Assembly (NCBI GenBank): GCA_900316105.1
Contig: ONBR01000005.1
Span: forward strand, 1-64,000
Source: an uncultured Olsenella sp.
GTDB lineage: Bacteria; Actinomycetota; Coriobacteriia; Coriobacteriales; Atopobiaceae
Direction of reading: 5' to 3'
DNA length: 64,000 bases
Part shown: positions 1 to 15,222 of the stretch, one piece after another
How the letters are laid out: every line of letters begins with the position of its first letter
Numbering within the stretch: the first letter of the stretch is position 1
Translations under genes and position numbers: made by a program
Notes under the pieces: generated by a model
Databases searched by the model: none
Told to the model about the DNA's origin: nothing
Seen by the model: only the letters and a program-made list of their open reading frames with translations

Positions 1-144
1 AGGCTCCAAGACATAAGTCGCCTCTACGCAAGCAGGGGGAGCCCCGCCCATTTATGGCCTGGCTGCCGGCTCTGACGGCGGCGAGGACAGGCCAAGGGGT
101 TGGGGGGGTTGGCGCGCGCTCCACGCGCCCTGCAGGATTGGTTC

Positions 145-182
145 TTGTTGCGCAACAAATTGGGGTTGGATGGGTTCATACT
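145..182 (+). promoter_or_regulatory. Palindromic operator plus -10 box upstream of zinc-ribbon gene
   Basis: A perfect 14-bp palindrome TTGTTGCGCAACAA lies at 145-158. Exactly 18 bases later there is a -10-like CATACT at 177-182. The same arrangement, with the same 18-base gap, precedes the other zinc-ribbon gene at 47885-47922. The palindrome would cover the -35 region, which itself is poor, so an activator or repressor site is a reasonable inference. Bases 1-144 hold no gene I can support. Confidence 0.5.
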
Positions 183-220
183 AGTGGTCAGCGATGATCA
201 CTAGGAGAAAGAGGCCTATC

Positions 221-1213
221 ATGTTTTGCCCAAAGTGCGGTACTCAGGTAAAGGATGGACAGAAGTTCTGCCCCAACTGTGGGAATAACCTGGCCGCTCG
301 GGACAATTCCTCAGAGCCTGCCCAGGATGCGGCTCCCGCTCCTGCCCCTGCGGCCGCTCCCTCGGCGTCCAAGCCTCCAATGCCTGCTTCCACCCCTGCG
401 TCTGCATCGGGAACCACCTTTGCCCCACAGACGGGCACCCGTTACGCACCACCTTCCTACCAGGCCGCTGCGGCTGCTCGGGAGTCCGCAAAAAAGGCAT
501 CCCTTACTACTGGCGGCATCGAGGGCATTGGAAAGATCGTCGGCAAGGCTGCCACCCTGGTCATGCTCTTCTTGCCCAGCCTCTCCTGTCCCCTCATCAA
601 GGGACTGCTTTCGTATGTAAAGCAGGGCGACGCGAACACCTACGCCCAGATGGCAGCCGTGGTTCCTGGATTGGACAAGCTCGCCGCGGGCGAGTGGAAC
701 ATGTGGGGTCTGCGTGATATGGCCAGCACCCTATCGTCCTTTGTCAGCCAGATGGGTTCGATGGGCGCAATGGGGGGGTCGACCCCTGGAGTTGCCGCGC
801 TGACCAGCTCCATCTCCTCGATCAACACCTATGTCACCCTTGCGACGGTCGTCTGGATCGTCGCCATCGTCGGTGTCGTCCTCGCCCTTGTCAATGACCT
901 GTCCGAGCAGGGCAAGATTTCGTTCAAGCTCAACCTTCCCTCCATGAAGATCGGCTTCTCGAACGTGGTCATGATCGTCGTCGCCGCACTCTCCCTTGCC
1001 TGGTGCATCATTGTATTGAACATAAACTCCAGCATTACGGGCTCGATTAACAGCCTCATGACGGCTAGCGGAAGCAATATCGGCGAGGCGGAGATCATGA
1101 TGTCGATGATCAGCTTCTTCGTCCTCCCCATCTGGCCCAAGCTGATCGTCCTCGTCTCTCTGGTCACGGCCTTCTGGTCCAACTTCTGCAAGGGCTTTGG
1201 CCTGGAGCGCTAG
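221..1213 (+). CDS. Zinc-ribbon membrane protein of unknown function
   Basis: The predicted protein of 330 residues opens with a CxxC-x10-CxxC zinc ribbon (MFCPKCG, then FCPNCG). A Pro/Ala/Ser-rich linker of about 70 residues follows, then four hydrophobic segments including LVMLFLPSLSCPLIKGLL, TLATVVWIVAIVGVVLALV and VVMIVVAALSLAWCIIVL. I chose ATG 221 over ATG 194 because AGGAGA at 203-208 is well placed for it and the zinc ribbon then begins at residue 2, as is usual for this domain. The topology suggests a cytoplasmic zinc ribbon on a membrane protein. No enzymatic motif is visible and I do not recognise a named family. It ends in a convergent arrangement with pyrE. Confidence 0.8.
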   Translation: MFCPKCGTQVKDGQKFCPNCGNNLAARDNSSEPAQDAAPAPAPAAAPSASKPPMPASTPASASGTTFAPQTGTRYAPPSYQAAAAARESAKKASLTTGGIEGIGKIVGKAATLVMLFLPSLSCPLIKGLLSYVKQGDANTYAQMAAVVPGLDKLAAGEWNMWGLRDMASTLSSFVSQMGSMGAMGGSTPGVAALTSSISSINTYVTLATVVWIVAIVGVVLALVNDLSEQGKISFKLNLPSMKIGFSNVVMIVVAALSLAWCIIVLNINSSITGSINSLMTASGSNIGEAEIMMSMISFFVLPIWPKLIVLVSLVTAFWSNFCKGFGLER

Positions 1214-1243
1214 CTCCTGGACCTGTTTGACAGCAAAAAGCAA

Positions 1244-1271
1244 GGGCGGCCATCCTCCTGGACGGCCGCCC
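1244..1271. terminator. Bidirectional hairpin between convergent genes
   Basis: GGGCGGCC at 1244-1251 pairs with GGCCGCCC at 1264-1271 around a 12-base loop. It is flanked by an A-rich stretch on the left (CAAAAAG) and AATTT on the right. It lies between the convergent 3' ends of the zinc-ribbon gene and pyrE. Confidence 0.7.
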
Positions 1272-1332
1272 AATTTCGTAGTTGGGGAGAAATAAGCGAT
1301 TTTCAAGCAAGACGCCTGGCGCCCACTGAGCC

Positions 1333-2016
1333 CTAGGCCTTGACCCCGTATTGCTCGTAGTAGGCGTCGATGGCAGACTTGAGCTTGTCGTCGATTACAA
1401 GCTTGCCGTCGACCTCGTGATTGTGAAGGGCCTCGGTGACCTCGCTCATCGTGACGATGGCGGAGGTGGGGAAGCCATACTTGTCCTGGATCTCGTCGAT
1501 GGCCGCTTTCTGGCCACCCTTGCCGACCTCCTGGCGATTCAGTGAGACCATGAGGCCAACGACCTCCACGTCGGCTGTGGCCTTGAGCTTGGGGTAGGTC
1601 TCGTCGATTGACTTGCCGGAGGTGGTCACGTCCTCCACGATGACCACACGGTCACCGTCATGAAGCTCTGCGCCCAGAAGCTGGCCCTTGTCGGCACCGT
1701 GGTCCTTGGCCTCCTTGCGATCGGAGCAGTAGCGGGCTTCCTTGCCATAAAGCTCATCCAATGCGATGCAGGTTACGACGGAAAGGGGAATGCCCTTGTA
1801 GGCGGGGCCAAAGACCACGTCAAAGTCCAGCCCAAAGGCCTCGTGGATGGCCTGGGCATAGTAGCGACCCAGCTGGTGGAGTTGAGCGCCCGTCACATAT
1901 GCACCTGCGTTCATGAAGAAGGGTGACTTGCGGCCGCTCTTGAGCGTGAAGTCGCCAAACTTCAGAACGTCACTCTGAACCATGAAGTGGATAAAGTCGC
2001 GCTTGTAATCCTCCAT
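1333..2016 (-). CDS. pyrE: Orotate phosphoribosyltransferase
   Basis: The 227-residue protein transfers PRPP ribose-5-phosphate to orotate, the fifth step of de novo UMP synthesis, in the cytoplasm. The PRPP-binding signature VVIVEDVTTSGKS is at residues 124-136. The GRKSPFFMNAG substrate loop near residues 28-38 and FGPAYKGIPL near 69-78 are typical of OPRTases. Length is at the upper end of the family norm (about 210-230). It is monocistronic here, with no other pyr gene nearby. Its upstream region contains a palindromic repeat (2064-2096) that could affect expression. Confidence 0.95.
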   Translation of the reverse strand: MEDYKRDFIHFMVQSDVLKFGDFTLKSGRKSPFFMNAGAYVTGAQLHQLGRYYAQAIHEAFGLDFDVVFGPAYKGIPLSVVTCIALDELYGKEARYCSDRKEAKDHGADKGQLLGAELHDGDRVVIVEDVTTSGKSIDETYPKLKATADVEVVGLMVSLNRQEVGKGGQKAAIDEIQDKYGFPTSAIVTMSEVTEALHNHEVDGKLVIDDKLKSAIDAYYEQYGVKA

Positions 2017-2063
2017 GTGGCCTCCTTGGCTGCTTGCGTGGGTATGCCTTCATGGTAGTCAAA

Positions 2064-2096
2064 ATGTGACATTTTCCTCAGGGGAAACTGTCACAT
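2064..2096. repeat. Palindromic repeat, variant copy of the TGTGAC...GTCACA family
   Basis: Perfect 8-bp outer arms ATGTGACA and TGTCACAT enclose an imperfect inner stem (TTTTCC / GGGGAAA). The 33-bp length and the arms match the palindrome family found at 49712, 50244, 60976, 61204 and 63721. It lies in the divergent region between pyrE and the C39-like peptidase gene, where it might double as an operator. Confidence 0.6.
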
Positions 2097-2159
2097 CCAG
2101 CAGAGCACTATCCTGACAAAGGCAAAAATCGGTTCTGGACAAGGGTAGGTCCTCTCTCT

Positions 2160-3302
2160 TTGGCTTCTCGGACACGACATAGGCAGCGTACGAATCACAA
2201 TCGAACGACCATGGCGGCACGCCAGAGGTCATGGCGTCGCGTGGCCTTGCACGGAATCGTCCGTCGTAGGAAGGCAGCCCAGGGGAGCATGAGCCTTAGC
2301 TGCGGGCGAGTCGTGCATTCTTCTGTGGGCAACCTTCGCGGCCAGGCGGTCAGGGCGGCGACCTCGACTCTTAGGCAGGTTGGCGATTGGGTGGGCAGGA
2401 AAGGCTCCCGTCGGGCCGCCCTTGCCGGTGCTGCTGCCCTGGCGGTAACCGTGGCCTGTCTGGGCGTCGTCCTGGTGGGTCCAGCCGCAAGGCATCCGGC
2501 GCAAGGCTCACAGGAAGAGGAAGGGGAAGAAGCCCCCGCGAAGCCCCGTAGTTGGACCTTTCCCCCAAGCCTGGAGCACCAGACCGCAAGGGACCTCGAC
2601 GATCTGGGCACGAGGGACCCGCGGGTGGCGGAAGTCCTGGACAGGCTTTCGGAATACGAGCACATCGGATCTGGATCAGAGCACGAGGAGGTTAAGCTCC
2701 TGCGCCTCCTTGCTCACGAGCCCGCCGCGCGTGACTTCGTTCGGGAGCTACCAGACCGCTATCCCCAGGAGCAGGCTGACCCCTATGACCAGGTAGCGAC
2801 CGAGGGCGTCGTTCCCGTCCTCTACCAGTGGGATCAGCGATGGGCCTACACACAGTACTGTGGCATGGAGTTTGGTGCCACTGGCTGCTGTCCCACCGCC
2901 ATGTCCATGGTCTACATGGCAGTCACGGGCAAGAACGACGTGACCCCGCCCATTATGGGTCGGCTGGCGACTGCCGAGGGCTATGCCGATGCTGACTCGG
3001 GTACCTATGGCAACTTCGTTGACTTTGCCGCCCGACACTTTGGCCTGCCCTGCCGGGAGATTGGTGTCTCGCGCGAGGGACTCCTACAGTCTCTGGGCCA
3101 GGGATGCATCGTCGTGGCCAGCATGGGACCAGGGGACTTCACGGATGGTGCTCACTACATAGTGATTACGGGAGTTGCGGAAGACGGCGGCCTGACCATT
3201 CATGACCCCTATTCGCAGCTTCACACAGAGCAGAGCTGGGACATCCAGACAATACTCTCCCAGGCGCGTCGCATGCATGCCTTCCAGCTTCCCAGGTCTT
3301 GA
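2160..3302 (+). CDS. Membrane-anchored C39-like cysteine peptidase
   Basis: The 380-residue protein has a long basic N-terminus, one membrane segment at about residues 86-108 and an acidic linker. The C-terminal domain from about residue 217 resembles the Peptidase_C39_2 (papain-like) fold. The core GATGCCPTAMSMV carries the candidate nucleophile (Cys243 or Cys244). GAHYIVITGV supplies the expected His, and a later Asp (HDPYSQ) could complete the site. The likely location is extracellular, anchored to the membrane. The start is uncertain: ATG 2211 would give a shorter basic tail. The substrate is unknown. It converges on the Pel operon but shows no sign of belonging to it. Confidence 0.75.
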   Translation: MASRTRHRQRTNHNRTTMAARQRSWRRVALHGIVRRRKAAQGSMSLSCGRVVHSSVGNLRGQAVRAATSTLRQVGDWVGRKGSRRAALAGAAALAVTVACLGVVLVGPAARHPAQGSQEEEGEEAPAKPRSWTFPPSLEHQTARDLDDLGTRDPRVAEVLDRLSEYEHIGSGSEHEEVKLLRLLAHEPAARDFVRELPDRYPQEQADPYDQVATEGVVPVLYQWDQRWAYTQYCGMEFGATGCCPTAMSMVYMAVTGKNDVTPPIMGRLATAEGYADADSGTYGNFVDFAARHFGLPCREIGVSREGLLQSLGQGCIVVASMGPGDFTDGAHYIVITGVAEDGGLTIHDPYSQLHTEQSWDIQTILSQARRMHAFQLPRS

Positions 3303-3327: not shown

Positions 3328-4758
3328 CTAGTAGAGGCGGCTGATCTTTTCCAAGAGTCCAGTGCGTTCCTGGGCTACCAGGGGCTGATTGGACAGGATG
3401 GTGTAGGGGAGGTTCCTCGTGTAGAGGAAGAGCCTCAGCCAGGATACGAAGAGATAGACCAGAGAGGCTATGACGAAGCCCAGGCTGTAGTATTCCTCGG
3501 GCAGGGCGGTTGCCGCCAGAGAGAGGACCAACGAGGTGATGCCAAAGGTCGCATTGGCTATGGCGGCGCCGTGAATGTTGCTGTAGTAGAGGCACATGAG
3601 GGTCACGACATTGCCGATGGCGTAGGCACAGTAACCCACACAGAGGATGACGAAATAGGAACCCATGGTGGGCGTGAACCCCAGGGGCAGACTTTGCAGG
3701 AGCGTGGACCCCACGGAGATCGAGAGGCCTGAGGCTATGATTTGCTTGAGGGACAGGTCGCCCAGCTCGCGCTCCAGGATGAGGAGCATCTCCTCCTGTT
3801 GGCCGTCGATCTCGGTGATGGAGCCATCTGCGTTGAAGAGGTCGTAGTAGTGGCGGTATGAGGGGTAGAAGTTGACCTCCGTAGATACGACGAAGGTGAC
3901 CTGGGTAATCAGTACCGACAGATAGGCAAAGAAGGATGCCGTGTCCCTTTCTGGGGAGGCATAGTACATGGGTGCCACCTGGATGCCCTGGGGTCCCAGC
4001 CACGAGATAACGATGAAGGAGAAGAGGCCGACGTAGGAGCTGAGGCCAACGATGATTAGGTCTCGGTATTGGCCCAGCCAGCTCACCCAAAGTAGATAGT
4101 GCCTGCGGGCGTTGGGGAAGTAGCGGTAGAGCAGGAGCACTGAGTAGATGATCATGACGCCGTAGCCAAAGGCCACGCCCAGCATGAAGCCTTCCAGGGT
4201 GGGTCCCAGAATCCGATAGGCCACCCAGCTCACGAGGAAGGACGTGCCGATTGCCAGGAAATAGGCTATCAGGATGCTGCGGTAGTCCTTGATGGCAGTC
4301 AGGTAGCTCGTGGCCATCCAGACCACGATGAGCTCGCAGAAGAGCATGAGGTTGAGGACTACCAGCGTGAAGCCCTGACCCGTCTGCAGTTGGAATGCCA
4401 GACAGGCCAAAAAGCCGATGGGCAAGAGGATCATGAGCGAACCCTCGAAGGAGGGGAGGACCAGGTCGTTGCGCTCCTGGTAGAGCATGTCGGCGATGTA
4501 GCGGGTGACGGGCATGGAGATGGTGCCGGTGAGTATCAGGGAGCCCAGGAGCGCATAGGTGGTCATGCAGACCAGAAGGTTGCGGTCGTTGACGGGCAGA
4601 CCGAAGGCAGTTCCCATGAGCTGGACGGAGCCGATGAAGGCGACGCCAAGGAGCATGGGGCCAGTGACCACCAGGCTGGTATAGGCATAGGCGCGCATCT
4701 TGCTGACGATGCCACGCTTGTCAAAGAGCCTTCGGAGTTCGAATCCGATGCCTGCCAT
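3328..4758 (-). CDS. pelG: Pel polysaccharide transporter PelG
   Basis: The 476-residue, about 12-helix membrane protein begins with the family hallmark MAGIGFELRRLF. PelG is a MATE/Wzx-like inner-membrane protein that works with the PelF glycosyltransferase and the PelD/PelE scaffold to export the growing Pel chain. Length matches the family (about 455-475). It is the last gene of the minus-strand pel operon, starting 3 bases after the pelF stop. The order (pelF then pelG) is the usual one. No frameshift or missing segment is apparent. Confidence 0.92.
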   Translation of the reverse strand: MAGIGFELRRLFDKRGIVSKMRAYAYTSLVVTGPMLLGVAFIGSVQLMGTAFGLPVNDRNLLVCMTTYALLGSLILTGTISMPVTRYIADMLYQERNDLVLPSFEGSLMILLPIGFLACLAFQLQTGQGFTLVVLNLMLFCELIVVWMATSYLTAIKDYRSILIAYFLAIGTSFLVSWVAYRILGPTLEGFMLGVAFGYGVMIIYSVLLLYRYFPNARRHYLLWVSWLGQYRDLIIVGLSSYVGLFSFIVISWLGPQGIQVAPMYYASPERDTASFFAYLSVLITQVTFVVSTEVNFYPSYRHYYDLFNADGSITEIDGQQEEMLLILERELGDLSLKQIIASGLSISVGSTLLQSLPLGFTPTMGSYFVILCVGYCAYAIGNVVTLMCLYYSNIHGAAIANATFGITSLVLSLAATALPEEYYSLGFVIASLVYLFVSWLRLFLYTRNLPYTILSNQPLVAQERTGLLEKISRLY

Positions 4759-4761
4759 GGC

Positions 4762-6213
4762 CTATGCCCCCTCTTCCTTGTGTCCCGACTTCTTGAACTC
4801 GTCCATCACCTGTTGGTACACGTTCTCGTAGCCCTCCATCATGCCGGACGTGCGATAGTAGCGCTCGACACGTTGCTGGCCGGCCTCGCCCATCTGCAGA
4901 CGCAGGCGGGAGTTGCGGCAGAGGACCTCCATGGCGTCGGCCATGGCCTTGCGGTCCATGGGCGGCACGATGATGCCGGATGGTCCCAGCAGGTCACCAG
5001 GAGCGCCCTGAAGGAGCTCACGGCAGGATCCCACGTCCGTGGTGACGGCGGGCCGCGCTGCCGCCATGGACTCCAGGATGCAGAGGGGCTGTCCCTCCGA
5101 GATGCTTGAGAGGACCGTGAAGTCGAACTTTGCCAGGTACTCCACGGTGCTCTGGTGTCCCAGGAAGAAGAGGTTGTGCAGGTCAAGGTTCTGCACCAGC
5201 TCGTGGCACTCCCTGCCGTAGTCTTCGTCGTCCGTATCTCCCAGGATGTCCAGCTCCACGGCGTCCTCGCCCATGCGCTGAGTCAGCTCGTAGAAGGCGT
5301 AGATCATCGTCTTGACGTCCTTGATGCGGGCCAGGCGAATGACGGCTCCAATGATGGTCTTCTTTTCGGGGGCCTTTGGGGGGACCTGCGAGAAGCGCTC
5401 GAAGTCCACGCCGTTGTGTATGACGGTGCACTTTTGGGCGTCCGCACCAAGGTCCACCTGGATGGCGCGGGCGGCATCAAAGAGGCTTGTGATGGCCGCG
5501 GCGTTCGAGTAACAGATGTTGGAGAGCATGTAGAAGAAGCGAATCCAACGACGCTTGAACTTTGGCTCGACCCAATTGGCTCGGATGAGCTCTTCCTCGC
5601 GCTCGCGGCTGTAGATGCCGTGCTCGGTCAGGATGAGGGGTTTGCCCGTCTGCATGTGCGCCATGGAGCCCAGGAGGCCGCCGTAGCCAGTGCAGATGGT
5701 GTGATAGAGGTCTGCCTGGGGGATTTTCTGACAGAGCAGGTGAAGTACGGGCAAGAGCATGGAGCGCGAGGTGTGGAAGGTCTTTGCGAAGGGAAGGTGG
5801 GCGTACTTCCTGCGGCAGACCTGGGTGACCATGCGCAGGTAGTCCTCGCCCATGAGGACCTCCAGGGGGTCGGCTCCGCCCTGGAAGAGGTCGATCAGGA
5901 CCTGCCAGTCGGGGTCCTCGCAAGCAAAGAGTCGACTTAGGGCCTCGAGCTCCTCTATGGTGAAGCGGTTCTTGTTCTTCTTGCTCTGGCGAGGGGGCTT
6001 GCGCAGGAGCTGGGTATCCAGAAACACCTGGTGGACCTCCGTCACGTTGGGCGGAAGTTCGTAGGCAAAGTGGTCTTTGTCCCTCGCGTGAGCTCCGATG
6101 GTCCAGAGGACGAACTCGTGCTGGGGACTGTTGCGGATGAAGGTGTGGGTCCAGGACGAGACGCCGCCGTGGACGAAGGGGTAGGAGCCCTCGAGGATTA
6201 GGCAGACCCTCAT
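4762..6213 (-). CDS. pelF: Pel polysaccharide glycosyltransferase PelF
   Basis: The 483-residue GT4 family enzyme is predicted to polymerise UDP-N-acetylhexosamine into Pel. The N-terminus MRVCLILEGSYPFVHGG and the following WTHTFI are characteristic of PelF. The retaining-GT4 EX7E motif is E373 to E381 within SEGQPLCILE. The nucleotide-sugar site includes RLARIKDVKTMI near residues 293-304. The ATG overlaps the stop of the upstream deacetylase gene by 4 bases (ATGA), which indicates translational coupling within the pel operon. It is cytoplasmic and expected to dock on PelD/E/G. Confidence 0.94.
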   Translation of the reverse strand: MRVCLILEGSYPFVHGGVSSWTHTFIRNSPQHEFVLWTIGAHARDKDHFAYELPPNVTEVHQVFLDTQLLRKPPRQSKKNKNRFTIEELEALSRLFACEDPDWQVLIDLFQGGADPLEVLMGEDYLRMVTQVCRRKYAHLPFAKTFHTSRSMLLPVLHLLCQKIPQADLYHTICTGYGGLLGSMAHMQTGKPLILTEHGIYSREREEELIRANWVEPKFKRRWIRFFYMLSNICYSNAAAITSLFDAARAIQVDLGADAQKCTVIHNGVDFERFSQVPPKAPEKKTIIGAVIRLARIKDVKTMIYAFYELTQRMGEDAVELDILGDTDDEDYGRECHELVQNLDLHNLFFLGHQSTVEYLAKFDFTVLSSISEGQPLCILESMAAARPAVTTDVGSCRELLQGAPGDLLGPSGIIVPPMDRKAMADAMEVLCRNSRLRLQMGEAGQQRVERYYRTSGMMEGYENVYQQVMDEFKKSGHKEEGA

Positions 6214-8093
6214 GGCGCCTCCTTCTGTATGGTGACATCGGCGGTCCTTGCGTCCAGGAGGTAGAGGGAGTCGGTGACCTGCCTAAGGGTTCCGCCTGTC
6301 ACGGAGGCAGGCTTTGAGTCAGAGAGGCGGACGAAGAGGTAGGTGCCGTCCAAGTAACCGTCCAGGTGGATGCTCATGGCCGAGTCGTCCTCGCTGACCT
6401 GCGGCGTTACCATGGCATAGCGCTGTACCGCACCGGCCATCCCAGAACCCGTCAGATGACGTATGCCAGGTGCGTTTTGGTCCACCCAGGTCATGTGGGC
6501 TTCCAGGCCGTTGCGCATCGCCGCCCACCCCTTGTCAGCACCACGGGCCTCGTCGGTCACGTCGTCCGGGTGGATGAAGTGCGAGTTCACATAGTGGAGG
6601 TTGAGCTCCGAAAGGGCGAGGAATTCCTCGTCCGCAGAGGCAATCTCCCCTGAGGTCACACGGGGAATCTCGACGATGCCATCGGCGGAGACGGTGAACT
6701 CCTGGTCGTAGGCGTTGCCTCCGGGCAGGTAGACGCTGGCTATGGCACGGATGGCACCGTTTTCGGCAATGACCTCTCGACCGTCTCTGGACAGTATGTT
6801 CGAGGGAGGGACGTATACCACTGGGTCAGACTTGTCGAACTGATCATGGGCGAAGGTCTGAAGTTCCTTCAGGGAGTCAGACATGGCCTTTGGGCTACTC
6901 CAGATGCCGTAGTCCTGTCCCTGGGTGTAGAAGGTGTCCCTGTCCACCAGGGGCTGGTGGTTGTATCCGTGCAACGCCAGCTCCCCACCATGGGCAAAGA
7001 GGAGGCTTCCGTAATACTGATGGCCGTAGGCTGAGGTCGGGCGGTCGAAGCTTCCATCAGTGCGGCTGTCGTAGGTCTCGATGAGGGCGCCGGTGTAGCT
7101 GATGTCGTGTTCCTCCGCGAGCCGGTTGATATCGGGCCACCAGACATTGGAGTAGAACTGGCTGGTGGTCATCCCGTAGTCGCGCGACAAGTAGGGGCTC
7201 GTGCCTGTCGGCGCTGGTGCCGGGCAGTCGTCGATGTAGTAGATGGAGCCGTCTATGACAGGGTAGACGCAGCTGGTTCCAAGGAGCGTATATGCCTGGG
7301 CACAGACGCCACGGCCGATCTTTCCCCAGAGGTTGAGGTTGTTGACGCAGACCCTGCCCGTGCCAAAGTCATTCGTCCATACCAGGGGCAAGCCTTTTGT
7401 GGTTGACGCCCAGGCCCTGCCCGTGGAGAGCGAGACTACCAGGGAGTTGAGCGAGGTGCGGGGCAGCTGGTAGGACTGTCCACCGCCTACCATGAAGCCT
7501 CCGGTGCAGGTAAAGTCCTCCGGCGACAGTGACTGGTAGTCGCTTTGGGGAACGATGCCCAAGAGGTCGGCGTACTCGCCTATGCCCCTTGCCCCCCAGG
7601 GACTACAGCCCAAGAGGAGCTGGCCACCCTGGGATACCCAGCCGCGAAGGGTTGGCAATAGGGTCCTTAGCTGCTGATAGTTGCTGATGGTCACGACTAC
7701 CTTGCGATACCTGGTGAGGTCGGGCAGACTTGAGCTGGAGACATCTGCCTCGTCAAAGCCCACGCGCATTTCGGCGAACACGGATTGATAGAGCTGCTCT
7801 ATCGTGAGGCTGTTCATGTCGTTGGAGTCATAGACGACCAGGCAGTCCGTGGTCGAGGCCACCTTCACGTGGCTGGTGTCTACCTCTTTGCTGTCAAGCA
7901 TCTGGTTGGACAAGGAGGAGCCCGTGGAGTTTGACCGCCCTATCTGGGCATAGACGAGGAAGGCGATGGCGCAGAGGATGCCAAAGGTCAGGAGCACCGT
8001 GCGATACCAATGGATGGGGTGGGCGGAGTGCCTGTAGTCCAGAGGGTCGAGCTTCCAGGAGCTGTCCTCGGTCGTCTGATGGGAGGGTCTCAT
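6210..8093 (-). CDS. pelA: PelA-like membrane-anchored polysaccharide deacetylase (DUF2194-like)
   Basis: The 627-residue protein has a single membrane segment at about residues 32-49, so the rest should lie outside the cell. A Rossmann/amidotransferase-like region follows (about 80-270, with VVVTISNYQQL and GGQLLLGCSPWG). The deacetylase-like domain carries the metal/base motif YIDD at 286-289 and HGYNHQ at 375-380, which fit a polysaccharide-deacetylase zinc site. No separate glycoside-hydrolase domain is obvious, unlike PelA of Pseudomonas. Position in the operon and 4-base overlaps on both sides support a role in partially de-N-acetylating Pel to make it cationic. Confidence 0.8.
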   Translation of the reverse strand: MRPSHQTTEDSSWKLDPLDYRHSAHPIHWYRTVLLTFGILCAIAFLVYAQIGRSNSTGSSLSNQMLDSKEVDTSHVKVASTTDCLVVYDSNDMNSLTIEQLYQSVFAEMRVGFDEADVSSSSLPDLTRYRKVVVTISNYQQLRTLLPTLRGWVSQGGQLLLGCSPWGARGIGEYADLLGIVPQSDYQSLSPEDFTCTGGFMVGGGQSYQLPRTSLNSLVVSLSTGRAWASTTKGLPLVWTNDFGTGRVCVNNLNLWGKIGRGVCAQAYTLLGTSCVYPVIDGSIYYIDDCPAPAPTGTSPYLSRDYGMTTSQFYSNVWWPDINRLAEEHDISYTGALIETYDSRTDGSFDRPTSAYGHQYYGSLLFAHGGELALHGYNHQPLVDRDTFYTQGQDYGIWSSPKAMSDSLKELQTFAHDQFDKSDPVVYVPPSNILSRDGREVIAENGAIRAIASVYLPGGNAYDQEFTVSADGIVEIPRVTSGEIASADEEFLALSELNLHYVNSHFIHPDDVTDEARGADKGWAAMRNGLEAHMTWVDQNAPGIRHLTGSGMAGAVQRYAMVTPQVSEDDSAMSIHLDGYLDGTYLFVRLSDSKPASVTGGTLRQVTDSLYLLDARTADVTIQKEAP

Positions 8094-8971
8094 GCTGCCC
8101 CCCAGAATTCCATGGCTTCCTTGACTTCGTCGGTCTTGAAGCCGGTGTTCTTCCTCATCCTATCAACCAGGGTGTGGACGCCGTCGGCGTTACGGGTTAT
8201 GACGCAGTAGCGCAAGCGGGAGCACCATACGTCCTGGGAGTCGGGCCAAGTCTCCTCCATGTCGGACAGGAGCCTATCTGCCTCGTCGAACCTCCCCGCG
8301 TTCAGGAGCTGCTTGACCAACTTTCGGTCGTCTGCCAGAGCCTCTGCCTTTCGGTGCTTCTCCTCCAGGAGATGGAGGTACTCTCCGCGCATCTGCAGGA
8401 GCAGCTGTCCCTGAAGGAGATCAGACGCCAGGTAGCGCTCCATGAAGACGATGGCAGCCGCAAGGAGGGACATGTCGTCTGGGTCCTCCTTGTGCATGGC
8501 CATAAGCTCGCGGAACTCCTTTTCGTAGGCGTGAGAGAACTCCGCCAGGGCGGTCGAGGCGTAGTGAGAGACCTCGGAGTCGTCGTTGTTGCGGGCGCTC
8601 GCAATGGTGGAGATGTAGCTTTCGGAGTCGCCCAAGAGGGCCTGGACCATGGCCTCGCGGCGGGTGGCGGTGTCATCCACTATGAGGGCGTCCTCAAGGG
8701 GAACGGCATTCTCCTCGTTGTTGGCATCCAACTCCTCGCTGACCGACTGGTCCTCGGGCTGTGCCAGATCTGGAATGTCCCCCTCCTTGCTACCCTCGAG
8801 ACCGCGGGATCTCAGCTGAGAGAGCATGAGGATGATGACCTCGCCCACGATGGGCAGACAGGCTGCAATGACCAGCGCCGGCGCGTCCAGGTTCAGCTTG
8901 TGCATGCGGTACAGGACGAAGACCAGTGCGAAGAAGACCAGGTGGACGATGAAGACGCGGAGGCCGATCAT
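8090..8971 (-). CDS. pelE: PelE-like membrane scaffold protein
   Basis: I start this gene at ATG 8971 (MIGLRVFIVHLVF), which overlaps the pelD stop as ATGA. The longer frame start at 9004 would run into pelD. The product of about 293 residues has two N-terminal hydrophobic segments (about 4-20 and 28-45). An acidic linker and a long helical region resembling TPR repeats follow (for example LLNAGRFDEADRLLSDMEE). That architecture is the one described for PelE, the inner-membrane partner of PelD. Sequence similarity cannot be judged by eye, so the name rests on architecture and operon position. Confidence 0.72.
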   Translation of the reverse strand: MIGLRVFIVHLVFFALVFVLYRMHKLNLDAPALVIAACLPIVGEVIILMLSQLRSRGLEGSKEGDIPDLAQPEDQSVSEELDANNEENAVPLEDALIVDDTATRREAMVQALLGDSESYISTIASARNNDDSEVSHYASTALAEFSHAYEKEFRELMAMHKEDPDDMSLLAAAIVFMERYLASDLLQGQLLLQMRGEYLHLLEEKHRKAEALADDRKLVKQLLNAGRFDEADRLLSDMEETWPDSQDVWCSRLRYCVITRNADGVHTLVDRMRKNTGFKTDEVKEAMEFWGAA

Positions 8972-10356
8972 ATCGTCACCCGCTCGTCCCTGATGAAGTC
9001 GCAATCCCAGCCGAGGGATCGGAAGCGATCGATGAGGAAGTGCTCGGTCTCGTCGGTGACCTGCATGGCCAGGAGGTAGAGGTTGCCATCCATGCCGATG
9101 CCCAGGAAGTCGCTGGAGCGCACGAATCGGTGGATGGAGCTATCCAGCTGCTCGATCGTCTCGCCGTGGGTCTTGAGCCTGAGGAGGCGGTAGGTGGCCA
9201 GGCGACGCTGCTGCATGGAGCGGGCGTAGGAGAGCTGCTCGTTGAAACGCTTTGCAGGCATGATGATGGTGTCGCCAATGTAGTTTGCAGAGAGGTTTGC
9301 CTTCTGGTACTCCCAGGCCTTCACCAGGAAGTTGCCCATGAGGCGGACCAGGACACGAATCTGGTTGAGGTAATAGACGTTCATCTGCTCGTATGACACG
9401 TTGCGCAGGGTGATGAGGACACGGAGCTTGTCCTGGTCGCGGATGCAGGCCACATAGTCGGGCATGTCCTCTACCAGTCCGCGGTTGACCCAGACGTCCT
9501 CCTCGGTCAGGGCGTTGATGATCTCGTGCTTCTTCACCAAGTCGATGGAGGTGGGGACCTCGTTGCGGACTCCCTCGGAACACACCTGCAGGCGGGCAAA
9601 ATCGGCGGACTTGTCATCCACGGTAAAGATCGCCACGGAATCGCAGCTCAACACGTCTTCGATGATGGGTACGGACTGAAGGAAGATCTCGCCCTGCTCG
9701 AAGACGCTCAGACGCTGGACGACGTCGTAGACCTTGCCGAAGCCACTTTGGCTCTGGATGAGCTCGCTGCGGTAGGTCTCCTTGATTCTTTGGGAGTCGT
9801 CGTAGAGGCTGCGCAGGTAGTTGGACCTGTCGGTCAGGATTTCGTTCTGATGCTTCACGAACTGGTTGTCCTCTTCCTGCTTTGTGTGCGCGTAGCCCAC
9901 CGCGCCACCCAGGGCAATGTAGAGGATGAAGGGCACCCAGTTCTCGTACCAGAAAAAGAGCGACGCCGCATCCAGGCCATTGGTCATGTAGGACTGGGCC
10001 AGGGAGGCGCACATGAGTAGGGAGGCAAGGAGGCCAGGAAAGACGCCATAGGCAGTGGCAATGAGAACGATATAGAGGAGGCGCAGGTCGATCATGCGGA
10101 ACTGCATACCGGTAGAGAAAAAGGTATTGAAGGTCTGCACCAGGATGGCACCGATGATGGTCTCGACGGCAATGACCAGCTTTCGGTGGGTCTGGAACCA
10201 CTGGTTCAGGCGTTCGTTCAGCGGGGGCTTTGCACCACGAGCGCGTCTGTAGGCATCCAGACAGAGTTCTAGCTGGGACAGGGGGTTGACCGAGGGCTTC
10301 CAGTCGTAGAAGTCCCTGGCCACGTTGTGGTGCTCGTCTACCTGGATGTGTGTCAC
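8968..10356 (-). CDS. pelD: PelD, membrane c-di-GMP receptor of Pel synthesis (5' part lost to a frameshift)
   Basis: The frame opens at GTG 10356 and codes 462 residues: four hydrophobic segments (about 60-155), a coiled linker (160-200), a GAF-like domain (about 205-345) and a degenerate GGDEF domain (about 350-462). GGDEF is replaced by GMDGN (421-425). Just upstream is R413-S-S-D416, matching the RxxD c-di-GMP inhibitory-site motif that PelD uses for sensing. The first roughly 45 residues (ending near CLDAYRRAR) look like the tail of an epimerase domain, not PelD. The same frame stays open upstream to at least 10449 and continues the neighbouring ORF if one base is restored near 10433-10443. 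The GTG is probably not the natural start. Confidence 0.88.
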   Translation of the reverse strand: MTHIQVDEHHNVARDFYDWKPSVNPLSQLELCLDAYRRARGAKPPLNERLNQWFQTHRKLVIAVETIIGAILVQTFNTFFSTGMQFRMIDLRLLYIVLIATAYGVFPGLLASLLMCASLAQSYMTNGLDAASLFFWYENWVPFILYIALGGAVGYAHTKQEEDNQFVKHQNEILTDRSNYLRSLYDDSQRIKETYRSELIQSQSGFGKVYDVVQRLSVFEQGEIFLQSVPIIEDVLSCDSVAIFTVDDKSADFARLQVCSEGVRNEVPTSIDLVKKHEIINALTEEDVWVNRGLVEDMPDYVACIRDQDKLRVLITLRNVSYEQMNVYYLNQIRVLVRLMGNFLVKAWEYQKANLSANYIGDTIIMPAKRFNEQLSYARSMQQRRLATYRLLRLKTHGETIEQLDSSIHRFVRSSDFLGIGMDGNLYLLAMQVTDETEHFLIDRFRSLGWDCDFIRDERVTI

Positions 10357-10400
10357 GGGGTCATCGCTGAAGTCCAGCGTGCTACCGGGAAGAATCTTCT

Positions 10401-11060
10401 TTATCTCTTCAGCAATCCAGCGGTATGACTCTCCCTTTGGGGGATGAGGTCGATGACCTCGATCTCGCTACGCCAGTCGACGAAGAGCCTGTGCAGTAAG
10501 TCCGCCAGATCCTGGATGCTCATGCAGTTGGAGAGCTGTTCGGGACGTCCTGGCATGGTGTAGGAGCCCTCCATCTCCAACTCCTCGAAGGCCCTGTACA
10601 GGAAGTCAACGGATGAGCTGGGATTGCAAAGGTAGGGGCTACGCACCATGAGGGTTTCTACGCCACGGTTGTTGCGGAAAAAGGTACACAGGTCCTCAAA
10701 AGACTGGCAGACGACCTTTTGACTGTTGTCGTCGTCCTGGAGGACGCGGTTCGAGCCAATGTAGACGAACTTCACTCCCGACTGTTTCTTTAGGCTGTGA
10801 AGACAAGTGCGTAGGTCGCCAATGTCCCAACTGCCGTCGCCCGTGGGGTCGAGCGTATTGGAGATGTAGATGACGCGGTCGAAGTCATGGGTGTTGAGGA
10901 GGTCCGAATAGGTGATTTCGGGCGAGGCCTTGACCCATCTGATGTGTTCCTTGATGCTACGGTTCTGCGTTGGAGAATAGACCACCACGGGGCTGTCAAA
11001 GGCATGACGGAAGAAGGACTCGTCGAGCACATCGGTATACCCAGTGACCAGCGCTGTCAT
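10401..11060 (-). CDS. Degenerate SDR/epimerase-like domain, probably the N-terminus of PelD
   Basis: The 219-residue ORF follows the layout of NAD-dependent epimerases: an initial ALVTGYTDV strand, FDRVIYISNTLDP, GVKFVYIGSNRVLQ, a helix FEDLCTFFRNN and VETLMVRSPYL. The GxxGxxG nucleotide loop and the YxxxK catalytic pair are absent, so it is probably not an active enzyme. Its last residues (RESHTAGLLKR) are unlike the family. Reading the PelD frame from about 10440 instead gives GESYRWIAEEIKKILPG and continues into PelD. It is the first gene of the pel operon. The true product is probably one protein of about 700 residues. Confidence 0.7.
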   Translation of the reverse strand: MTALVTGYTDVLDESFFRHAFDSPVVVYSPTQNRSIKEHIRWVKASPEITYSDLLNTHDFDRVIYISNTLDPTGDGSWDIGDLRTCLHSLKKQSGVKFVYIGSNRVLQDDDNSQKVVCQSFEDLCTFFRNNRGVETLMVRSPYLCNPSSSVDFLYRAFEELEMEGSYTMPGRPEQLSNCMSIQDLADLLHRLFVDWRSEIEVIDLIPQRESHTAGLLKR

Positions 11061-11291: not shown

Positions 11292-12692
11292 CTATGCGAG
11301 CAGCTTCTTGGTCATGTCGGCTGCCGCCTTCTTGCCTGCGCCCATGGCCAGGATGACCGTGGCTGCGCCGGTGACGATGTCGCCGCCAGCCCAGATGCGG
11401 GGATCGGAGGTCTGGCCGTTCTCGTCAGCCTCGATGTAGCCCCACTTGTTGATCTTCTCGGGGCCAATCAGCTTGGCGATGGGGTTGGCGTTGGTGCCGA
11501 TGGCGGAGACGCCCAGGTCGCAGGGGAGGACGTCGACGGAGCCCTCGATGGGTACGGGGCGACGACGGCCGGATGCGTCGGGCTCGCCCAGCTCCATGTT
11601 CTGGACCTTTACCGCAGAGACGGCACCGTCCTCGCCGGCGATGAACTCGATGGGGGAGGCCAGCTCGTGGATCTCGACGCCCTCGGCCTTTGCGTGCTCG
11701 ACCTCGGCGCGACGGGCGGGCATCTCGGCCTCGGTACGGCGGTAGCACAGGGTGACATGCTCGGCACCCAGACGCAGGGCAGTACGGACGGAGTCCATTG
11801 CCACGTTGCCGCCACCAAAGACGACGACGTTCTTTGCGTGCTTGGTGGGGGTGTCGTACTCGGGGAACTTGTTTGCCTTCATCAGGTTCACGCGGGTCAG
11901 GTACTCGTTGGCAAAGAAGACGTTGGGCAGGTTCTCTCCGGGAATCTTGAGCATCTTGGGCAGGCCTGCGCCGGTGGAGATGTACAGGGCGTCATAACCC
12001 TGGGCAAAGAGCTCCTCGGCGTTGGTGATGCGGCCGACCACGGAGTTGTACTTGAACTTGACGCCCAGCTTCTCCAGACCGTCGATCTCGCGTTTCACGA
12101 CTGCCTTGGGCAGACGGAACTCGGGGATGCCGTAGACCAGGACGCCGCCGCCGGTGAAGAAGGCCTCAAAGACCGTGACGTCGAAGCCGTTGCGGGCAAG
12201 CTCGCCGGCGCAGGTGATGCCAGAGGGGCCAGCGCCGATGATGGCTACCTTCTTGCCGTTCTTGGGTGCCATCTGGGTCTCGGAGGCGAGCTCGGGCTGG
12301 TCGCCCAGGAAGCGCTCCAACTGGCCGATGGCCACGGGCTCGGACTTCTTTCCACGGATGCACTTGCCCTCGCACTGGTTCTCCTGGGGGCAGACGCGGC
12401 CGCAGATGGCGGGCAGCATGGACTGCTCGTGGATGATGTCCAGGCCGCGGCCAAAGTCCTCGTCGCGGATGGCCTCGATGAACTTGGGGATGTTGATGTT
12501 GACGGGGCAACCCTCAACGCAGAGGGGGTTCTTGCAATCGAGGCAGCGGTTGGCCTCGGCGATTGCCATCTCCTTGGTGAAGCCCTTGTCAACGGGACGG
12601 AAGTCCTTTGCGCGCTCGACGGGGTCCTCCTCGTTTGCGGGAGTGCGCGGGGACTTCATATCGGGAACGTAACGACCGTTTACTTGTGGCAT
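11292..12692 (-). CDS. nfnB: NfnB-type NADPH-binding flavoprotein (GltA-like, glutamate synthase small-subunit family)
   Basis: The 466-residue iron-sulfur flavoprotein has an N-terminal 4Fe-4S region (CLDCKNPLCVEGC near residue 50, then ICGRVCPQENQCEGKC near 95). An FAD-binding site VAIIGAGPSGITCAGELA and a second nucleotide site VVFGGGNVAMDS follow. Such proteins are often labelled NADPH-dependent glutamate synthase (gltA). No large GltB subunit is nearby, and the gene overlaps an NfnA-like partner by 13 bases. NfnB of the electron-bifurcating ferredoxin:NADP+ oxidoreductase is therefore the better reading. Length is normal. Confidence 0.85.
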   Translation of the reverse strand: MPQVNGRYVPDMKSPRTPANEEDPVERAKDFRPVDKGFTKEMAIAEANRCLDCKNPLCVEGCPVNINIPKFIEAIRDEDFGRGLDIIHEQSMLPAICGRVCPQENQCEGKCIRGKKSEPVAIGQLERFLGDQPELASETQMAPKNGKKVAIIGAGPSGITCAGELARNGFDVTVFEAFFTGGGVLVYGIPEFRLPKAVVKREIDGLEKLGVKFKYNSVVGRITNAEELFAQGYDALYISTGAGLPKMLKIPGENLPNVFFANEYLTRVNLMKANKFPEYDTPTKHAKNVVVFGGGNVAMDSVRTALRLGAEHVTLCYRRTEAEMPARRAEVEHAKAEGVEIHELASPIEFIAGEDGAVSAVKVQNMELGEPDASGRRRPVPIEGSVDVLPCDLGVSAIGTNANPIAKLIGPEKINKWGYIEADENGQTSDPRIWAGGDIVTGAATVILAMGAGKKAAADMTKKLLA

Positions 12693-13473
12693 GCGCAGTT
12701 CGCCTCCTCATAGGCCTTGAGGGACTGGCCCTCCTCGGTACGGTATGCAGCCTGACGTGCGCGAAGGTCGTTCCAGTTGACCTTCCGATCTCCACACGGC
12801 AGCAGCCGCACATGCCCGTGCCGTCGACCATGATGGGGTTCAGGGACGCAATGATGGGCGTATCGTACTTCTCGCAGGTCAGTGCAGAGAACTTCATCAT
12901 CGGGACGGGGCCGACGGTAAAGACGTGATCGACCTTCTTTTCCTGCAGCAGACGCTCCAGGGGTGCGGTGACGACGCCCTTCTCGCCGTAAGAGCCATCA
13001 TCCGTGGTGATGTGGATGTGGTCCTCGGGCAGGAGGGAACGGAACTGGTCCTCCAGCAGGAGGAGACTCTTGGTGCGGGCGCCCATGATGGCGTGCACCT
13101 CGTTGCCAGCGTTGGCCAGCTGGCGTGCGATGGGGTAGGCGATAGCCAGGCCGACGCCGCCGCCGATGACTGCCCAGGTGCCCTTGCCCAGGTCAGAGGG
13201 CTGGCCCAGGGGACCGGTGACGTCCAGGATGCTGTCACCGACCTCGTAGGTGGACAGCATGGTCGTGGTCTTGCCTACCTTCATAAAGATGAACTCGACC
13301 CATCCCTCCTCGGGATTCCAGTCTGCGAAGGTGAAGGGAACGCGCTCGCCCGTCTCGTTCGCACGAACCATCAGGAACTGGCCAGCGTGTGCATGCTTGG
13401 CCATATCCGGTGCCTCGATGCGGAACTTGAACACCTTCTCCGAAAACTGAGTCTTTTCGAGGATTTTGTACAT
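12589..13473 (-). CDS. nfnA: NfnA-type ferredoxin-NADP+ reductase subunit, 3' end disrupted
   Basis: The first 227 residues are a regular NfnA/sulfide dehydrogenase beta-type FAD/NAD reductase (GQFLMVRANE, AVIGGGVGLAIAYPIARQL, VGPVPMMK, then GTGMCGCCRV). Cys222 and Cys225 are 2Fe-2S ligand candidates. After CRVEIG the open frame turns into Arg/Ser-rich nonsense that runs backwards over nfnB to 12589. In the shifted frame the family's true C-terminus appears (VNWNDLRARQ ... EEANCACHK) and stops at 12680-12682, overlapping the nfnB start. About 15-18 codons that normally carry the last cluster Cys (FACVDGPEF-like) are missing at 12781-12791. This is either a real mutation or an assembly fault. 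Confidence 0.8.
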   Translation of the reverse strand: MYKILEKTQFSEKVFKFRIEAPDMAKHAHAGQFLMVRANETGERVPFTFADWNPEEGWVEFIFMKVGKTTTMLSTYEVGDSILDVTGPLGQPSDLGKGTWAVIGGGVGLAIAYPIARQLANAGNEVHAIMGARTKSLLLLEDQFRSLLPEDHIHITTDDGSYGEKGVVTAPLERLLQEKKVDHVFTVGPVPMMKFSALTCEKYDTPIIASLNPIMVDGTGMCGCCRVEIGRSTGTTFAHVRLHTVPRRASPSRPMRRRTAHATSKRSLRSRYEVPAHSRKRGGPRRARKGLPSR

Positions 13474-14439: not shown

Positions 14440-15222
14440 CTACTTGACGTCCGATAGGCTTACGCGTGAGTAGACTCTCTGCTCCTGGCTGTTGAGCCCA
14501 CGAAAGACGCCCACCTCAATCGGACAGTCGGCAAAGTCTCGCCCGCAGCAGAGCTTGATGTAGGTCTCGTCGGCTCGACAGGCTCTCGTGGGGTCGATGC
14601 CGTACCAGAACCCCTCCTGCCACACCTCTCCCCAGGCATGGCTTGGCCCTTCGCCCAGGGGGATGCCGCTAACGTAGCGGACATTCAGTCGACGTATGCG
14701 ACAGAGTGCAAGGAAGACGTTCGTGTAGTCCTGGCAGACTCCGTGCCCCTGACGCAATGCCTGATCGGCGGTGGTGTGCACGTTGGTCACATTCGGCGTG
14801 TAACAGATGCTCTCGTGGGCGGCCATGGCCATGCCCCAAGCCTGCTCAAGAGGCGTGCCGTCATTAGGTACGGTGGCAGCGAGCTCGGCCAGAGCGGGCG
14901 ATGGCTGGGTCAGCCCCGAAGGGTATCGGTAACAGTCCATGGGCTTGCAGCATGTGCGCATCGTGTCATCCCGAATCGCCGTTCCCCTGACCACATAGCG
15001 CAAGTGGTCGTGGCCCTCGGGCAGCCTGCCCTCGTAGGTGACATTGCCAAAGCTGTCCTTGCCCGGACTGTCGCCCAGGGGCTTTGGCAGGATGGTCAGG
15101 TGCAAGTCACTGATTCTCTGCTCTGGAAGGTCTTGTGGCATGCAACGCAAGAGAAAGCTGTGGTCCGTGATTGGTGCCGAGTAACGGTTGTAGGTTGCGA
15201 AGTAGAAGTCGAGCCTTTGCAT
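14440..15222 (-). CDS. Transglutaminase-like cysteine protease superfamily protein
   Basis: The 260-residue protein has a C-terminal transglutaminase core: catalytic Cys in GHGVCQDYTNVFLALCR, His in GEGPSHAWGEVW and Asp in YGIDPTRAC. The N-terminal part (HLTILPKPL, FGNVTYEGRLP) resembles the beta-sandwich that precedes this core in bacterial transglutaminase-like proteins. It follows genes for an alpha-E protein and a circularly permuted ATP-grasp protein. These three families recur together in many bacteria and are predicted to make and process a small peptide or peptide-linked metabolite. That role is inferred, not demonstrated. Confidence 0.85.
   Translation of the reverse strand: MQRLDFYFATYNRYSAPITDHSFLLRCMPQDLPEQRISDLHLTILPKPLGDSPGKDSFGNVTYEGRLPEGHDHLRYVVRGTAIRDDTMRTCCKPMDCYRYPSGLTQPSPALAELAATVPNDGTPLEQAWGMAMAAHESICYTPNVTNVHTTADQALRQGHGVCQDYTNVFLALCRIRRLNVRYVSGIPLGEGPSHAWGEVWQEGFWYGIDPTRACRADETYIKLCCGRDFADCPIEVGVFRGLNSQEQRVYSRVSLSDVK

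Follow-up and report, generated by a model that had tools for sequence, protein, structure and literature searches.

We conclude with high confidence that the 64-kb stretch of DNA analyzed here (the window) carries a pelDEA(DA)FG operon whose first gene, a fused SDR-PelD gene, is one base short at a C run, and that this break is recent and does not represent a conserved device for recoding or phase variation. Pel is a biofilm polysaccharide (slime), and the long protein that contains PelD controls its production. The features of the locus are as follows.

10401..11060, minus strand: ORF1, which holds the degenerate, epimerase-like SDR domain at the N terminus of the fused PelD (SDR profile A4; Shine-Dalgarno sequence)
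10433..10443, minus strand: C5-A3-G3 run at which the frame changes by -1
10357..10443, minus strand: PelD-frame segment upstream of the GTG, continuing the SDR domain (PPKGESYRWIAEEIKKILPGSTLDFSDDP; open frame and homologue alignment)
8968..10356, minus strand: stand-alone PelD ORF with a GTG start (end of the SDR domain, transmembrane, GAF-like and degenerate GGDEF-like regions, the last with RxxD)
8090..8971, minus strand: pelE-like gene for a TPR protein, its ATG overlapping the pelD stop (Shine-Dalgarno -9.0)
6210..8093, minus strand: gene for a DUF2194 protein in a PelA-deacetylase-like operon position (Pfam PF09960, E 3.7e-126)
4762..6213, minus strand: pelF glycosyltransferase gene (NF038011 PelF, 347 bits against a cut-off of 100)
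3328..4758, minus strand: pelG transporter gene (PF16933 PelG, E 6.6e-113)

The pelF and pelG genes beside pelD both score above their family cut-offs, and the locus is a Gram-positive pelDEA(DA)FG exopolysaccharide operon, with pelD, pelE, the deacetylase gene, pelF and pelG in the published order (Whitfield et al. 2020, PMC7112168). In contrast to the operons described there, the window has a pelD that is split by a one-base frame change, and no CotH gene was found in its genome.

The pelD reading frame in the window is not intact. ORF1 begins with an ATG at 11060 and runs on the minus strand for 219 codons, to 10401. On the same strand, the open stretch of the PelD frame begins directly after a TAG at 10470 and closes with the stop at 8970..8968. 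At 10443..10433 the minus strand reads CCCCCAAAGGG, the C5-A3-G3 run, and here a one-base change leads from ORF1 into the PelD frame, which amounts to a -1 shift. The first-pass annotation had located the run correctly to the base, and the protein of about 700 residues that it expected from joining the frames comes to 697 (207 + 490). It had also called the tail of ORF1 foreign to the family, in agreement with our finding that the final ~12 residues (QRESHTAGLLKR) are out of frame and have no match in relatives. A smooth join between ORF1 and an upstream-open PelD frame, likewise proposed there, is seen in the alignment with single-ORF homologues. In a Blast comparison of the two window pieces with one of these (L037), the first piece matched residues 6-222 and the second matched from residue 224, so that the pieces abut. 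Because relatives read both pieces as one, the junction is more than a chance meeting of two frames. The closest relative, the rumen MAG RUG078 (G108; OMXZ01000003.1), is in one frame across the exact break point of the window, and its VLDLLPPQG aligns at equal length with VIDLIPPKG in the joined frames. It is from this pairing (RUG078 VLDLLPPQGVGVEDM against VIDLIPPKGESYRW in the window) that the frame change is placed at the C run.

The identity of the joined N-terminal region was assessed by profile comparison. SDR profile A4 matches epimerases and L-threonine dehydrogenases in the PDB with E-values down to 2e-9, and its matches to solved SDR enzymes reach beyond the junction at 207, as far as profile position ~235-241. 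The hidden segment and approximately 40 residues at the start of the GTG-initiated PelD are thus part of the SDR domain, and NVARDFYDWKPSVNPLSQLELCLDAY aligns with the SDR C-terminus of the homologues, which bears out the earlier suggestion that the start of the GTG-started PelD is the end of the epimerase domain. Judged by these profile matches, the N-terminal domain is homologous to epimerases, with an enzyme activity that is only putative. The PelD profile gave no confident match in the PDB, its hits being weak ones to diguanylate cyclases. For streptococci, clostridia and actinobacteria, the literature describes extended PelD proteins with an N-terminal epimerase-like domain whose residues are altered and probably inactive (PMC7112168); the fused SDR-PelD architecture is therefore already published, actinobacteria included, and the window gene has the degenerate SDR domain at the PelD N-terminus in common with these proteins. 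The role of this degenerate domain is called unknown in a 2025 paper on S. intermedius (PMC12345266). What the window presents is either an ordinary gene disruption or an artefact, affecting an architecture that is already known.

A search for PelD homologues in 395 genomes of the order yielded matches in 17 genomes besides the window's own. The SDR-like N terminus and PelD lie in one open frame in 13 complete homologues (G023, G070, G149 and ten of a single genus, g51), and the homologue in G005 is partial, at a contig edge. The central claim of the first-pass annotation, that the epimerase-like domain and PelD form one gene, interrupted at the C run by a frame change of one base, is supported by these 13 one-frame homologues, which show a single fused SDR-PelD gene as the ancestral architecture. 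Two separate proteins in related strains, with a conserved PelD start and ribosome site, had been named there as the finding that would speak against this claim, and comparison of the related loci revealed no such arrangement. At the level of these sequence comparisons, the split is shown not to be a conserved two-gene arrangement.

RUG078 carries the same operon, with a PelD half that is 55% identical to that of the window, and its pelD is also untranslatable as one protein by the standard rules. The lesions differ, however, consisting of an ATA at L016 15979, aligned with the start ATG of the window, and an in-frame TGA at L016 15187-15185, with no frameshift at the site of the break in the window. 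No in-frame ATG, GTG or TTG follows the ATA for ~180 bases, the TGA falls in the linker before the membrane region, and the remaining pel genes are open. The TGA aligns with a Cys of the window, and UGA recoding was considered and set aside; decay is the simpler reading because this pelD also has no ATG. Differences between the two genes concentrate at codon position 3 and are rarest at position 2 in all three segments compared, the SDR half (46% identical), the main part of PelD (55%) and the 28 codons from the junction to the GTG (18%, with 20 differences at position 3, 17 at position 1 and 11 at position 2). This order of positions (3 > 1 > 2) suggests that both halves were coding and under selection until recently. 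At just 18% identity, constraint on the stretch from the junction to the GTG is weakly shown, and this short hidden segment by itself says little about selection.

The ATG of ORF1 has a strong Shine-Dalgarno sequence (-11.2 kcal/mol with the 16S tail), comparable to the ribosome sites elsewhere in the operon (-9 to -12). The site at the PelD-frame GTG at 10356 is poor (-3.0), and the best alternative start in that frame, a GTG scoring -5.3, falls within the predicted membrane region; Shine-Dalgarno scoring thus found no convincing ribosome site at the PelD-frame starts in the window. This lack of a good site at any PelD-frame start argues against a functional gene fission, in which the SDR protein and PelD would now be produced separately, as does the situation in RUG078, where the first ATG, GTG or TTG after the TGA is a GTG at 15016, within the predicted membrane region. 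The pelD of RUG078 is likewise broken in the linker, as fission might predict, and a further precedent is S. thermophilus JIM8232, whose PelD has no SDR domain and whose biofilm is still pel-dependent (PMC7112168). The JIM8232 protein can be likened to the stand-alone PelD of the window, although the SDR loss in that strain is attributed to upstream transposases (PMC7112168), whereas the window retains the SDR half and has a frame break between it and the PelD half. On balance we regard fission as extremely unlikely.

Programmed -1 ribosomal frameshifting, by which a short SDR protein would be made alongside the full SDR-PelD, is consistent with the direction of the shift and with its location at a C-rich run. 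The predicted downstream RNA structure is slightly better than that of shuffled sequences for the longer segments, with z-scores of -1.3 to -1.5, and for the nearest 53 nt it is worse than the shuffles (+0.7). The ORF1 frame, ATC CCC CAA AGG GAG, contains no X XXY YYZ heptamer, and the relatives encode the fusion without any shift, which leaves programmed frameshifting with a very slight chance. Toggling of PelD on and off by the C run, that is, phase variation, borders on the negligible. A homopolymer does sit at the frame change and the downstream operon genes are intact, as such a switch would have it, but C5 is far below the usual length of contingency tracts, C runs of at least 5 occur 39 times in the window, and the run is not kept at the equivalent site in relatives. 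Counting C or G, there are 91 runs of at least 5 in the 64-kb window, and about three would be expected in a gene of this length. More generally, it is very improbable that the frame change is both real and functional, with recoding at the C run serving either to detach the degenerate SDR domain from PelD on purpose or to join the two conditionally, and with the lesions of RUG078 as a parallel uncoupling in the clade. Of the four options that the first-pass annotation had offered, programmed frameshifting and phase variation are accordingly unlikely, and the other two, assembly error and real inactivation, stand about equal.

A real null mutation and an assembly error are about equally likely sources of the recent break. 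No strain-level relative beyond RUG078 was found among the genome contigs, and none among viral contigs or plasmids; a second copy of the locus was not found in the window's own genome. With no independent sequence of the species found, the absence of the base is known from one assembly only. The error rate of that assembly was estimated by comparing sampled stretches of the genome with the complete genome G004 of the same genus (103 genes), the reverse direction serving as a control. One-base frameshifts were confirmed in none of ~103 other genes, so single-base errors are not rampant, and this favors a recent inactivating mutation, in which the base was lost by slippage in living cells and the lineage has its pel operon switched off. 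The same reading gains from RUG078, in which the same gene bears different lesions (ATA start and in-frame TGA) and the other pel genes are open, and from the lack in both genomes of CotH, an accessory of SDR-PelD operons (PMC7112168). It is weakened by the other frame-breaking defects of the assembly, in nfnA and aroF, as an error-prone assembly would have, and we give it close to an even chance. A sequencing or assembly error, with the fused gene intact in the living organism, has a chance somewhat short of even. These same defects, out-of-frame deletions of roughly 45-60 bases in 2 of the 103 genes, count in its favor, as do the absence of any confirmed frame-breaking defect in the control genome G004, the 42 contigs and 91.6% completeness, which suggest a draft or MAG, and the position of the change in a homopolymer. 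Against it, the other defects are longer deletions, unlike a one-base slip in a homopolymer, a run of only five Cs is short for most platforms, and the 91 C or G runs in the window are accompanied by no further confirmed one-base break.

The sequence of events that we propose starts from an ancestral first gene that encoded a degenerate SDR/epimerase-like domain followed by the membrane, GAF and c-di-GMP-receptor regions of PelD. One base has since gone missing at the C run in the pelD of this assembly, through a recent null mutation or an assembly error, and because of the missing base, translation from the sole good start would end after about 219 residues and yield no full-length PelD. Should the base really be missing in living cells, PelD function would be lost and, through it, Pel output. 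The species would then probably lack the normal c-di-GMP-controlled production of Pel, and a real break, taken together with RUG078, would suggest that pelD has been lost repeatedly in the family with the rest of the operon persisting. In either case the annotation should record one frameshifted SDR-PelD gene in place of an orphan protein and a GTG-started PelD, and the assembly should be flagged as carrying frame-breaking defects.

Arg-382 and Asp-385 of the RxxD motif, the putative c-di-GMP-binding element in the degenerate GGDEF-like end of PelD, are invariant in alignment A5, and the window's own genome (G000, 2.1 Mb) has 27 GGDEF domain matches, a large c-di-GMP network. Given the invariant motif and the many GGDEF domains, control of PelD by c-di-GMP, with a signal to read, is plausible.

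A CotH gene has been reported in the accessory set of SDR-PelD operons (PMC7112168). None was found in G000, including the region near the operon at window positions 1-3300, or in G108. Among the genomes with one-frame homologues, G070 has none, the match in G023 is weaker and lies on a contig other than that of pelD, and CotH is present in G149 and in two tested g51 genomes.

Several other sites had been flagged as possible frameshifts. The acyl-carrier/FabK-type and SufB/SufD-type neighbors and a site at 42 kb were rejected, being adjacent genes read as stop-to-stop ORFs, and the flags at 45 kb of the window and in the control genome were dismissed from their coordinates as stop-to-stop or shadow-frame effects. 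The gene for an nfnA-type ferredoxin-NADP reductase subunit (window 12589-13473, minus strand) is missing roughly 45-50 bases, out of frame, at ~12775, 2.3 kb from the pelD break, and its proper C terminus (KVNWNDLRARQAAYRTEEGQSLKAYEEANCACHK) continues in another frame. The deletion junction reads AGATCGGAAG, identical to the first bases of a widely used Illumina adapter, which may be a coincidence. In an aroF-like DAHP synthase gene on another contig of the same genome (C24; L138 ~11033), roughly 60 bases are missing, out of frame. Another DAHP synthase gene, located elsewhere in this genome, is open, and the aroF defect may for that reason be genuine as well.
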